This document shows, one piece after another, positions 2,172-46,713 of a DNA stretch of 64,000 nucleotides. A program made the translations under genes and the position numbers. Source of the stretch: Halorubrum trapanicum (lineage in GTDB: Archaea > Halobacteriota > Halobacteria > Halobacteriales > Haloferacaceae); NCBI RefSeq assembly GCF_017873555.1, contig NZ_JAGGKE010000001.1:248001-312000 (forward strand). The letters are read 5' to 3'. Under the pieces are notes generated by a model. It saw only the letters and a list, made by a program, of their open reading frames with translations. It did not search any database and was not told the origin of the DNA. Each line of letters starts with the position of its first letter. The stretch's first letter is position 1.

Positions 2172-2849
2172 TCAGGCGAACGCCGCCAGAATTCCCGCGC
2201 CGTCGGTGCTCCGGCCGAGGTCCGGGAGGGTGGCGCGCTCGGGATGCGGCATCAGCACGGCGACCGTCTCGCGCTCGCCGAGGACGCCGGCGACGTTGTC
2301 GGTCGAGCCGTTGGGGTTGGCCGCGTCGGTGACGTTGCCGTCGGCATCGCAGTAGCGGAAGAGGACGCGGTCGTCGTCGACGAGGTCGGCGTGGGCCTCG
2401 TCGCTTATCTCGAAGCGCCCCTCGCCGTGCGCGATGGGGACCTCGATCACGTCGCCCTCGCCGTAGGCGGCGGTCCACGGCGTGTCCGCGCGCTCGACGC
2501 GCAGGCGGACCGGCTCGCACTGGAAGCGCGCGGAGGCGTTCGTGGTGAACGCGCCGGGCGTCAGCCCCGACTCGGAGCCGATCTGCGCGCCGTTACAGAT
2601 CCCGATCACGGGGACGCCCTCCTCGGCCGCGGCGCGGACCTCGTCCATGATCGGCGCGCGCGCGGCCATCGCACCGGCCCGGAGGTAGTCGCCGTAGGAG
2701 AACCCGCCGGGGAGGACGATCCCCTCGGCGTCGTCGGGGAGCCCGTCCTCGTGCCAGACGCGCTCTGCGTCGACGCCGAGGTGGTCCAGCGCGCGGACGG
2801 CGTCGCGGTCGCAGTTGGAGCCGCCGAACTGGACGACGGCGACCGTCAC
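2172..2849 (-). CDS. purQ: Phosphoribosylformylglycinamidine synthase, glutaminase subunit
   Basis: PurQ releases ammonia from glutamine for the FGAM synthase complex (PurL-PurQ-PurS), the fourth step of purine synthesis. The class I amidotransferase triad is visible: nucleophile Cys85 in GICNGAQ, and His202/Glu204 in MPHPER. Two in-frame GTG codons could start it, at 2858 and 2849; I chose 2849 because it gives MTVAVVQFGGSNCD, the usual family start. It lies 88 bases downstream of purS on the same strand, probably in one transcript. purL is not in the window. The length (225 aa) is normal. Confidence 0.95.
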   Translation of the reverse strand: MTVAVVQFGGSNCDRDAVRALDHLGVDAERVWHEDGLPDDAEGIVLPGGFSYGDYLRAGAMAARAPIMDEVRAAAEEGVPVIGICNGAQIGSESGLTPGAFTTNASARFQCEPVRLRVERADTPWTAAYGEGDVIEVPIAHGEGRFEISDEAHADLVDDDRVLFRYCDADGNVTDAANPNGSTDNVAGVLGERETVAVLMPHPERATLPDLGRSTDGAGILAAFA

Positions 2850-2937
2850 GCCGCCCACCTCGCGTGGACGGCCGCGGCGGTTCCGCCGGCACCGCTCGCG
2901 CCGGTGACGATCGGCGTCGTCTCGGCGACGGCGACCG

Positions 2938-3189
2938 TCATCGCTCCGCGACCGCCACGTCGTAGTCGTGGATCGTGGGGTTCGCGAGCAGCCGCTCGGC
3001 CATCTCGTCGGCGCGGTCGGCGGCCTCGCCTGCGTCGGCGGCGTCGAGGTCCACCTCGAAGCGGTCCGCCGAGCGGAGGTCGGACAGCTCGAACCCGAGC
3101 CGTTCGAGGGCCTGCTGGGTCGTCTCGGCCTCCGGATCGAGGACGCCCCGCTTCAGCCGGACCGTCACCGTCGCCGTGTACGCGGTCAT
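2938..3189 (-). CDS. purS: Phosphoribosylformylglycinamidine synthase, PurS subunit
   Basis: An 83-residue protein that bridges PurL and PurQ in the three-part FGAM synthase found in archaea and Gram-positive bacteria. It shows the family start YTATVTVRLKRGVLDPEAET, and the middle helix and the LLANPTIHDYDV end of PurS. It is first in a purS-purQ pair. A T-rich box (GGTTTTTACA, 3211-3220 read on this strand) lies 22-31 bases before the ATG, so the message is probably leaderless. This contrasts with the divergently read purU gene, which has a long leader. Confidence 0.95.
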   Translation of the reverse strand: MTAYTATVTVRLKRGVLDPEAETTQQALERLGFELSDLRSADRFEVDLDAADAGEAADRADEMAERLLANPTIHDYDVAVAER

Positions 3190-3234: not shown

Positions 3235-3241
3235 CTTATAC
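3235..3241 (+). promoter_or_regulatory. Probable TATA box of purU
   Basis: CTTATAC in the divergent purS-purU gap, preceded by a GC stretch that could serve as the BRE. Transcription would begin near 3262, leaving a leader of about 108 bases before purU. A second AT-rich candidate (GGATAGGTATT, 3252-3262) cannot be excluded and would shorten the leader by about 20 bases. This is inferred from spacing only. Confidence 0.5.
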
Positions 3242-3261
3242 GCACATTCGTGGATAGGTAT

Positions 3262-3369
3262 TGGTCGATCCTTCGGGAGGCAGGGACCGCACGGAACGAA
3301 AGGGGCAAACCCCTCCGACCGTTGGAGAGGGTGTATGCAGCCGCTCGAACCCGCGGAGGTGATCGTCGC
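3262..3369 (+). promoter_or_regulatory. Structured 5' leader of purU with upstream ORF and Shine-Dalgarno
   Basis: The leader holds two mutually exclusive helices: AGGGG (3301-3305) with CCCCT (3310-3314), or CCCTC (3311-3315) with GAGGG (3327-3331). A third hairpin pairs CCGC (3341-3344) with GCGG (3353-3356), and its 3' arm overlaps GGAGGTGATC (3355-3364), a near-perfect Shine-Dalgarno complementary to the 16S rRNA end. An upstream ORF (ATG 3335, peptide MQPLEPAEVIVA) ends in a TGA that overlaps the purU ATG as ATGA. Such a leader is unusual where most genes are leaderless. It may be a regulatory RNA or leader-peptide switch; that role is inference. Confidence 0.5.
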
Positions 3370-4350
3370 ATGACCCGCGAACTGACCGAGATCACGGTCG
3401 TCGGAGGAGACAAGACCGGACTCATCGCGCGGGTCACCTCGCTGCTGTTCGAGCGGGGAATCAACATCGAGGACCTCGATCAGGCCGTCCGCGAGGGCGT
3501 CTTCCGGATGACGACCCGCGTCGACACCGCGGAGATGGATACCTCCCGCGGCGAGCTCCGCCGCGCGCTCGCCGAGCTCGGCCGCGAGCTCGACGTGGAC
3601 ATCCAGGTCCGGTTCCCGAGCGACCGCGACGCCCGCCGGGTCGCGCTCTTGGTCACGAAGGAGACGCACGCGCCCGAGGCGCTGCTGGAGGCCGAGGCGC
3701 GGGGTGACCTCGCGGACGACGGCGAGGAGGCCGAGATCCCGGTCGTCATCGGCAACCGCGGCGACCTCCGGTCGCTCGCGGAGCGTTACGATAAGCCGTT
3801 CTACGACGTGGGCGACGGCAACGGAAACACGGACGAGGGACGCCTCCTCGACCTGCTGACCGAGTACGACGTGGACCTGATCGTCTTGGCCCGCTACATG
3901 CGGATCCTCTCGCCGGAGGTCGTCTTCCGGTACGAGGGCCGGATCGTCAACGTTCACCCCTCGCTGCTCCCGGCGTTCCCGGGCGCCGAGGCGTACCGGC
4001 AGGCGAAGGACGCGGGCGTCCGCGTCGCGGGCGTCACCGCCCACTACGTCACGACCGACCTCGATCAGGGACCGATCATCGCGCAGCGCGCCTTCGACGT
4101 GCCGCCGGGCGCCGACGTCGCCGAGATCAAGCGCCGCGGGCAACCCCTCGAAGCCGAGGTGTTACTCGACGCGGTGCGGCTCCACCTCGCGGACGCCATC
4201 GCGGTCCACCGGGGGACCGTCCACGTGCGCGAGGACGTCGACGTCGACGCGCGGCTCGGGCTGAGCGAGGCCGCCGTCGACGCGAATCCCGACGAACCGG
4301 TCGACGGCGAGCCGCTCAGGCGGTCTCAGGCGTCTCCATCGGACGACTGA
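3370..4350 (+). CDS. purU: Formyltetrahydrofolate deformylase
   Basis: PurU hydrolyses 10-formyl-THF to formate and THF, balancing one-carbon units and feeding formate to purine synthesis. The 326 residues comprise an N-terminal ACT domain (about 5-80, TEITVVGGDKTGLIARVTSLL), then a formyltransferase-fold domain (about 95-280). Catalytic motifs are NVHPSLLPAFPG (Asn/His) and HYVTTDLDQGPII (Asp). The C-terminal 40 residues are acidic and variable. ATG 3370 was chosen because a strong Shine-Dalgarno ends 6 bases upstream and the ACT domain starts at once. It is read away from purS-purQ. The ACT domain suggests amino-acid control (glycine or methionine in bacteria), not shown here. Confidence 0.93.
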   Translation: MTRELTEITVVGGDKTGLIARVTSLLFERGINIEDLDQAVREGVFRMTTRVDTAEMDTSRGELRRALAELGRELDVDIQVRFPSDRDARRVALLVTKETHAPEALLEAEARGDLADDGEEAEIPVVIGNRGDLRSLAERYDKPFYDVGDGNGNTDEGRLLDLLTEYDVDLIVLARYMRILSPEVVFRYEGRIVNVHPSLLPAFPGAEAYRQAKDAGVRVAGVTAHYVTTDLDQGPIIAQRAFDVPPGADVAEIKRRGQPLEAEVLLDAVRLHLADAIAVHRGTVHVREDVDVDARLGLSEAAVDANPDEPVDGEPLRRSQASPSDD

Positions 4351-45573: not shown

Positions 45574-46713
45574 TCATCGGCCCTCGACGAACGCCGCGAT
45601 CCGGTCGGTCGCCTCCTTCAGCTCGCGCATCGAGGTCGCGTACGAAACGCGGAGGTGGCCCTCCCCGCCGTCGCCGAAGACGGACCCGGGGACGACCGCG
45701 ACGCCCTGCGCCTCCAGCAGCGCCTCCGCGAACGCCTCGTCGTCGCCGCCGCACTCGGGGAACGCGTAGAACGCGCCGCCCGGCTCGAAGGTGTCGAGAC
45801 CCATCTCGTTGAACCGGGAGACGACCAGCCGGCGGCGACGGTTGTACTCCTCGACCATCTCCGTCACCTCGTCGTCGCAGCGGTCGAGCGCCTCGATGGC
45901 CGCGTACTGCGGCGTCGTCGGCGCCGACAGCATCGTGTACTGGTGGATCCGGTTCATCGCGTCGATCGCCTCCGCGGGGCCCAGCGCGTACCCCAGCCGC
46001 AGGCCGGTCATCGCGTACGCCTTCGAGAAGCCGTTGACGACGACCGTGCGCTCGCGCATCCCTGGCTGGGTCGCGATCGAGGCGTGGTCGGCGCCGTATG
46101 TGAGCGCGGCGTAGATCTCGTCGGCGATCACGCGGAGATCTTCCTCGCGGCAGAACGCCGCGACCTCGGCGTACTCCTCGTCGGTCATCGTCGCGCCCGT
46201 GGGGTTGTTCGGGTAACAGAGCACAAGTAGGTCGGCCTCGGCCGCGCCCGCGGCCTCCAGCGACTCGCGGGTGAGCGCGAAGTCGTCCGCGGAGCGGGTC
46301 GGAACCGTCAGCTGCTCGCCGCCCGCGAGTTCGATCCCCGGGCCGTAGGAGATGTACGTCGGCTCGTGGACCGCGACCGTGTCGCCGGGGTCGACGAGCG
46401 CGCGGAACGCGAGGTCGACCGCCTCGCTCGCGCCGGTCGTGACCAGGATTTCCGACTCCGGCGCGTACGACTGGTCGTAGCGCTCGTGGTGGTCGGCGAT
46501 CCGCTCGCGGAGCGCGGCCATCCCCCGGTTCGCGGTGTAGGAGGTCTTCCCGCGTTCGAGCGAGTCGATCGCGGCGGTGCGGGCGGTCCACGGCGCCGAG
46601 AAGTCCGGCTCGCCGACGCCCAGCGAGATGACGTCGTCGCGCGCCTCCGCCAGCTCGAAGAACTTCCGGATCCCCGACTCGGGCAGGGTGCGCGCGCGGT
46701 CCGACAGCCTCAT
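45574..46713 (-). CDS. Class I/II PLP-dependent aminotransferase
   Basis: A 379-residue fold-type I aminotransferase of the Ib aspartate/aromatic group. ISLGVGEPDFSAP, the cofactor ribose motif VLCYPNNPTGA, PLP Lys231 in NGFSKAYAMTGLRLGY, and the C-terminal LRVSYATS (substrate Arg) are present. Its ATG overlaps the lrp stop by four bases. The paired Lrp regulator suggests an amino acid as both substrate and signal. Annotated alternatives include aspartate or alanine transaminase. Confidence 0.93.
   Translation of the reverse strand: MRLSDRARTLPESGIRKFFELAEARDDVISLGVGEPDFSAPWTARTAAIDSLERGKTSYTANRGMAALRERIADHHERYDQSYAPESEILVTTGASEAVDLAFRALVDPGDTVAVHEPTYISYGPGIELAGGEQLTVPTRSADDFALTRESLEAAGAAEADLLVLCYPNNPTGATMTDEEYAEVAAFCREEDLRVIADEIYAALTYGADHASIATQPGMRERTVVVNGFSKAYAMTGLRLGYALGPAEAIDAMNRIHQYTMLSAPTTPQYAAIEALDRCDDEVTEMVEEYNRRRRLVVSRFNEMGLDTFEPGGAFYAFPECGGDDEAFAEALLEAQGVAVVPGSVFGDGGEGHLRVSYATSMRELKEATDRIAAFVEGR

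Follow-up and report, generated by a model that had tools for sequence, protein, structure and literature searches.

A class-wide mini-ORF overlapping the start of haloarchaeal purU is proposed to load ribosomes from a predicted leaderless transcript start

In the window, a 64,000-nt stretch of Halorubrum trapanicum DNA, purU is preceded by a near-perfect Shine-Dalgarno (SD) sequence, which raises the question of what a haloarchaeal gene would use it for. According to the parts of the Haloferax literature used here, the SD is unused at 5'-UTRs (PMC3986360), 72% of the protein transcripts are leaderless (PMC4983044), and −4-nt overlaps with an SD lead to near-strict coupling (PMC6728339), so a leadered gene with an SD would be an oddity in this group. 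The initial annotation of this DNA, made from the sequence, offered two answers: a leader of about 108 nt with competing hairpins that would sense folate, glycine, formate or purines, or the passage of ribosomes over a 12-codon upstream ORF that ends on the purU start. We followed up both, and the features of the locus are collected in Table 1.

The 12-codon ORF and its ATGA overlap were confirmed in the sequence. The description of the SD as near-perfect was borne out as well, since its ten nucleotides are the full complement of the 16S 3' end GGATCACCTCC; this end was read in three congeneric genomes, the H. trapanicum genome giving no exact match in a pattern search. For the product of purU, the best-scoring families are the NCBIfam deformylase families despite scores below both cut-offs (222.1 against a cut-off of 223, and 218 against 286), and its closest relatives, from Halorubrum, are 95% identical.

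Table 1. Features of the purU locus, in window coordinates.
Feature	Coordinates	Strand	Description
purU	3370..4350	+	formyltetrahydrofolate deformylase; ACT and formyl transferase domains; 326 aa
purS	2938..3189	-	divergent from purU; predicted directly leaderless (start 3190, score 9.3); without mini-ORF
Mini-ORF	3335..3373	+	12 codons, MQPLEPAEVIVA; TGA overlaps purU start; predicted leaderless
Shine-Dalgarno (SD)	3355..3364	+	GGAGGTGATC, inside mini-ORF; proposed role in purU reinitiation
ATGA stop/start overlap	3370..3373	+	4 nt shared by mini-ORF and purU
Proximal BRE/TATA-like promoter	3293..3310	+	GGAACGAAAGGGGCAAAC; implied start 3334-3335; AGGGG/CCCCT strings sit here
Distal TATA-like CTTATA	3235..3240	+	possible second promoter, start ~3263, Halorubrum only; varies within genus
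Palindrome-like element	3237..3256	.	TATACGCACATTCGTGGATA; between purS and purU promoters; candidate operator
Linker mini-ORF	2846..2941	-	31 codons, located between purS and purQ; start overlap ATGA, end overlap GTGA

Conservation of the mini-ORF and its overlap with purU

We searched 292 genomes of the class, from 77 genera, for PurU. Ten genera (g7, g12, g13, g17, g22, g29, g51, g57, g76 and g77) were set aside as having no full-length PurU; their best E-values, ~1e-15 to 1e-27, fall by our reading of the search table in the range of formyl transferase paralogues. Upstream DNA was taken from 103 genomes of the other 67 genera (a subset of the genomes of each genus) and analyzed together with the window, giving 104 sequences. 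An ATG-started mini-ORF with an exact 4-nt overlap was found in 88 of them, covering 60 genera and nine of the ten families. When only the first-listed sequence of each genus was counted, such a mini-ORF of 8–20 codons was present in 60 of the 67 genera, compared with a mean of 6.2 and a maximum of 13 when the 110 nt upstream were dinucleotide-shuffled 500 times; the upstream ORF is thus conserved far beyond chance. A looser overlap search gave 62/67 with the doubtful cases g67 and g9 included, and we adopted the stricter count. In a count that is independent of the overlap, ATGs located 20–62 nt upstream split 65:4:2 by frame, the 65 being in the coupling frame. The distance from this ATG to purU varies from 23 to 59 nt, and therefore the reading frame is kept through changes in length. 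Within the Halorubrum-group alignment, the mini-ORF ATG is present in all 38 rows. The overlap tetramer is mostly of the RTGA type, with ATGA (as in the window) in 43, GTGA in 13 and TTGA in 4 of the 60 genera.

The SD is maintained together with the overlap. Matches of at least 6 nt occur in 47 of the 67 genera (shuffle mean 1.3), and 54 of the 63 matches of at least 4 nt lie at −13 or −12. Frame, overlap and SD position are thus nearly invariant whereas the peptide and its length vary, and purU carries the combination that characterizes haloarchaeal termination-reinitiation, a −4-nt overlap with an SD inside the upstream ORF.

The ATG/4-nt form is absent from the first sequence of seven of the 67 genera and from 16 of the 104 sequences overall. 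Inspection by eye showed that the mini-ORF of genus g4 (L118–L120) stops a few bases before the purU start with no overlap, and that g15 and g38 have possible GTG-started frames; g67 and g71 have no convincing mini-ORF. In g24 (L207, L209, L213–L215) and g9 (L211, L212) the frame that begins at the mini-ORF start runs on into PurU, resulting in an N-terminal extension. The promoter of genus g59 sits directly before purU, and its mini-ORF, which is counted among the 60, is probably spurious, making this genus a probable loss. Single sequences without the mini-ORF were also seen in two otherwise positive genera, L203 in g2 and L216 in g72.

Promoters and the sequence upstream of purU

We located the likely transcript start in two ways. 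First, we profiled the A+T content of 65 representatives, one per genus and length. The maximum lies 30 to 26 nt upstream of the mini-ORF ATG, with values of 0.72–0.85 at the four best positions. For the 28 representatives whose length is other than 35 nt, the best 5-nt AT window is 0.68 with the mini-ORF as anchor versus 0.57 with purU. The AT-rich box therefore tracks the mini-ORF ATG rather than purU although the lengths vary, which supports a start at the mini-ORF. Second, we scored promoters with a matrix trained on 120 likely genes in 464 kb of the H. trapanicum genome, replacing an earlier matrix built from the purU promoters themselves. Its consensus contains CGAAA and TTTTT, in agreement with the haloarchaeal BRE and TATA motifs as given in the relevant part of a published survey (PMC4983044). 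For each of 59 other genera we took the top-scoring site in the interval from −150 to purU: in 29 of them it falls no more than 2 nt from the mini-ORF ATG (expectation 1.6), and in one it falls that close to the purU start. The top promoter of the other 30 genera is more than 2 nt away from the mini-ORF ATG, in six of them 3–4 nt upstream. The median score is 7.5 at the mini-ORF ATG and −3.7 at the purU start, the 99th percentile of the background being 5.1. Across the class, a predicted leaderless start at the mini-ORF ATG is well supported by these positions.

In Halorubrum itself such a start is likely but not certain, because the proximal TATA is weak and the distal site has a similar score. 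The proximal site of the window (start 3334) scores 5.0 and the distal site (start 3263) 4.0; the corresponding medians for 37 related loci are 4.65 and 4.93. By the matrix derived from the purU class, the proximal TATA of the window scores 3.2 against a class median of 13, and in Halorubrum it is degenerate, reading GCAAAC where the sister genera g3 and g20 have CTAAAC. A conservation profile was calculated from 42 sequences, including four new ones from 30 extra congeneric loci, 17 of which failed the start pattern and were excluded. Positions 3300–3309, at a fixed distance from the ATG, are among the most conserved intergenic stretches (mean 1.86 bit), and the spacer from 3320 to 3329 is the least conserved (mean 0.66 bit). 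The 21-nt proximal block has a single occurrence in the H. trapanicum genome (3.08 Mb) at up to three mismatches, which ruled it out as a regulon motif.

The distal promoter may give a leader of ~108 nt in Halorubrum. If purU were transcribed mainly from it, this leader could fold, hide the SD and thereby control translation, for example by pairing CCCTCCG (3311–3317) with the CGGAGG of the SD. The distal scores given above are in line with such a leader, and in the RNAalifold consensus of 38 sequences the SD does pair with the CCTCC stretch, every pair holding in 36–38 of the 38 rows with G-U counted; a pair that barely varies is not disproved. However, none of the nine pairs in this consensus shows a two-sided change (covariation term −0.07), the fold is no better than that of shuffled sequences, and the distal TATA is variable within the genus. 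Moreover, the CCTCC stretch is adjacent to the promoter and, by eye, absent from most other genera. We consider control by a distal leader unlikely.

The competing helices of the initial annotation were correct as strings, in that AGGGG/CCCCT and CCCTC/GAGGG are present and share bases, but they found no support as structure. In an alignment of 38 sequences (the window and 37 loci), no covariation was seen for any of the three proposed helices. Helix 1 has no two-sided change, and 14 of its 190 cells are broken. For helix 2, 67.4% of the cells pair, compared with 48–68% in slid controls (68.4% for a slide of two columns), and its two single two-sided cells equal those of the controls; helix 3 has no two-sided change. 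Nor is there excess stability: the 124-nt stretch folds at −42.5 kcal/mol versus a mean of −45.9 kcal/mol for dinucleotide shuffles (z +0.95), of which 169 out of 200 were at least as stable. No Rfam family reached its gathering score anywhere in the window. In addition, one arm of the second helix lies in the variable 3320–3329 spacer, and in genera other than Halorubrum the BRE/TATA promoter of the mini-ORF occupies the corresponding DNA. Given the covariation, stability and Rfam results, we rejected a structured leader or riboswitch, and the proposed sensing of folate, glycine, formate or purines by competing hairpins is not supported. Of the two refuting observations that the initial annotation named for homologous leaders, a lack of covariation was seen, but the uORF is strongly conserved. 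Most likely, the AGGGG/CCCCT "hairpin" is a promoter and the transcript is leaderless.

The encoded peptide and mini-ORFs elsewhere

The 38 aligned rows contain 17 nonsynonymous and seven synonymous variant codons, and sequence and length differ across genera; a conserved peptide was therefore rejected. What the peptides share class-wide are mainly residues dictated by the SD in two frames, EV or RRW. Arginine makes up 25.8% of the class peptides, unlike haloarchaeal proteins, which are acidic. A leader peptide that senses or attenuates through codon- or nascent-chain-dependent stalling, reporting an amino acid or a one-carbon signal, would be compatible with the position and in-frame conservation of the short ORF and with this Arg richness. 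Yet the Arg/Trp tail follows from the SD read in one frame, as Glu-Val does in another, and runs of purine-linked codons such as those for Gly and Met are absent from the listed peptides. With neither a conserved peptide nor a regulatory codon run, as would be expected of an attenuation leader, and with nonsynonymous changes outnumbering synonymous ones, we regard such a role as very improbable. Programmed −1 frameshifting at the overlap, which would produce an N-terminally extended PurU like the in-frame fusions in g24 and g9, is hardly to be believed, as no shared slippery motif precedes the overlap (by eye) and the tetramer and SD suit reinitiation. The peptide thus appears dispensable, with frame, overlap and SD under selection, and selection seems to keep translation itself rather than its product.

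Mini-ORFs do not appear to be a general device of the H. trapanicum genome. A survey of 464 kb with two promoter matrices gave no enrichment of coupled mini-ORFs where promoter scores were high, so we rejected this idea; promoter-proximal coupled mini-ORFs are rare there. The same survey yielded eight double-coupled candidates, some of which are likely due to chance. Double-coupled linker candidates were seen at L235 (near base 348, reverse strand) and in the window near 45577 on the minus strand; among them are VTRRLPPLGGAP, which precedes a putative siroheme-synthase-like frame, and MTEFVEDR.

A second mini-ORF lies between purS and purQ, which are both on the minus strand. We examined the window and 80 loci, of which 20 were without a find and 61 had both genes. 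In 21 of the 61 loci, a linker ORF of 10–31 codons begins with ATGA and ends in a 4-nt overlap; in 31 the two genes overlap directly by 4 nt, and nine have neither form by our criterion. The linker was seen in the window, L001, L003–L006, L008 and others, and it opens with bases similar to the purQ start, as a duplication might produce. Its presence lends further support to the view that mini-ORFs may keep ribosomes coupled in these genomes.

The palindrome-like element is a candidate operator. A loose CACG-TT-CGTG pattern, which misses the imperfect copy of the window, matched in 16 of 67 genera, and one similar palindrome occurs elsewhere in the H. trapanicum genome (G000:C1:79876-79895).

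A proposed two-step start and its closest relatives

We propose a mostly leaderless mRNA on which purU follows as the second cistron. Judging from the promoter position, RNA polymerase would start at the mini-ORF ATG or one base before it. The ribosome would then initiate on the 5'-terminal AUG, a mode of initiation established for haloarchaeal leaderless mRNAs, read the mini-ORF, terminate at the TGA overlapping the purU start codon, and reinitiate at purU with the help of the SD within the mini-ORF. The hairpin-like strings would be promoter and spacer DNA, and the mini-ORF would by default be a ribosome-loading adaptor that sets purU output. The class-wide ORF, the 4-nt overlap and the embedded SD support the passage of ribosomes over the short ORF, the second suggestion of the initial annotation, and we consider it probable that a leaderless mini-cistron loads the ribosome that reinitiates on purU; start site, translation and coupling are here predicted from sequence, conservation and promoter-position statistics. 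In the relevant parts of the literature, removal of the SD in Haloferax cut reinitiation to varying degrees and raised it in one case (PMC6728339), reinitiation was near zero at a spacing of ~22 nt, and 15 nt from the end of an upstream gene were enough for it in E. coli (PMC10666635). By analogy with the Haloferax pairs, the mini-ORF as a partner would give the purU SD a use.

Any metabolite or initiator-tRNA signal to purU is speculative. Two successive initiations, on the 5'-terminal AUG and by reinitiation, might make PurU output drop disproportionately when initiator Met-tRNA or initiation factors run short, in which case the mini-ORF would report methionine or one-carbon status throughout the haloarchaeal class, independently of its peptide, an idea that we hold to be a long shot. 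If the proposed two-step start is correct, a deeply conserved archaeal mini-ORF would be kept for the act of translation and tied to one folate enzyme, and the SD would gain a role in a group where it has been reported non-functional at 5'-UTRs. The locus is also suited to asking why purU keeps a two-step start, since the divergent purS is predicted to start directly. ORFs as short as the mini-ORF usually fall under the size limits of gene annotation. In open-licence papers, we found no report of such a mini-ORF, whether for purU or as a feature shared across an archaeal class, and nothing relevant on purU with a leader peptide or on formyltetrahydrofolate deformylase in haloarchaea.

The type of mechanism is already known from mycobacteria and Haloferax; for its deep conservation at one gene we found no precedent in the open-licence papers searched. 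A 2025 review (PMC12548453) mentions short ORFs from which ribosomes are passed on to the gene downstream. The upstream ORFs that Babski et al. (2016, PMC4983044) described in long 5'-UTRs of Haloferax volcanii resemble the mini-ORF in being short ORFs before a normal gene; that survey lists 16 ORFs of 15–31 aa in 5'-UTRs of 150–250 nt, and purU is not in its Table 2. Closer are the overlapping gene pairs of H. volcanii (Huber et al. 2019, PMC6728339; 2023, PMC10666635), which, as far as these reports describe them, share with purU the −4-nt overlap, the SD in the upstream ORF and the predicted reinitiation. Their upstream partner is a normal gene, whereas that of purU is a productless-looking mini-ORF with which the mRNA is predicted to begin. 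In mycobacteria, as described in the pertinent part of Shell et al. (2015, PMC4633059), a leaderless RTG opens a small ORF, the TGA that closes it forms an RTGA overlap with the next start, and the linkage is kept while the peptide sometimes is not. At purU, too, the linkage but not the peptide is kept. The class-wide promoter position fits a small ORF that would start at the first base of the transcript, with two candidate promoters in the window. Translation of the mycobacterial small ORFs was shown by ribosome profiling, whereas that of the purU mini-ORF is predicted from its sequence. Unlike the mycobacterial type, the purU mini-ORF is archaeal, belongs to one metabolic gene over ~60 genera, and carries the SD within itself.
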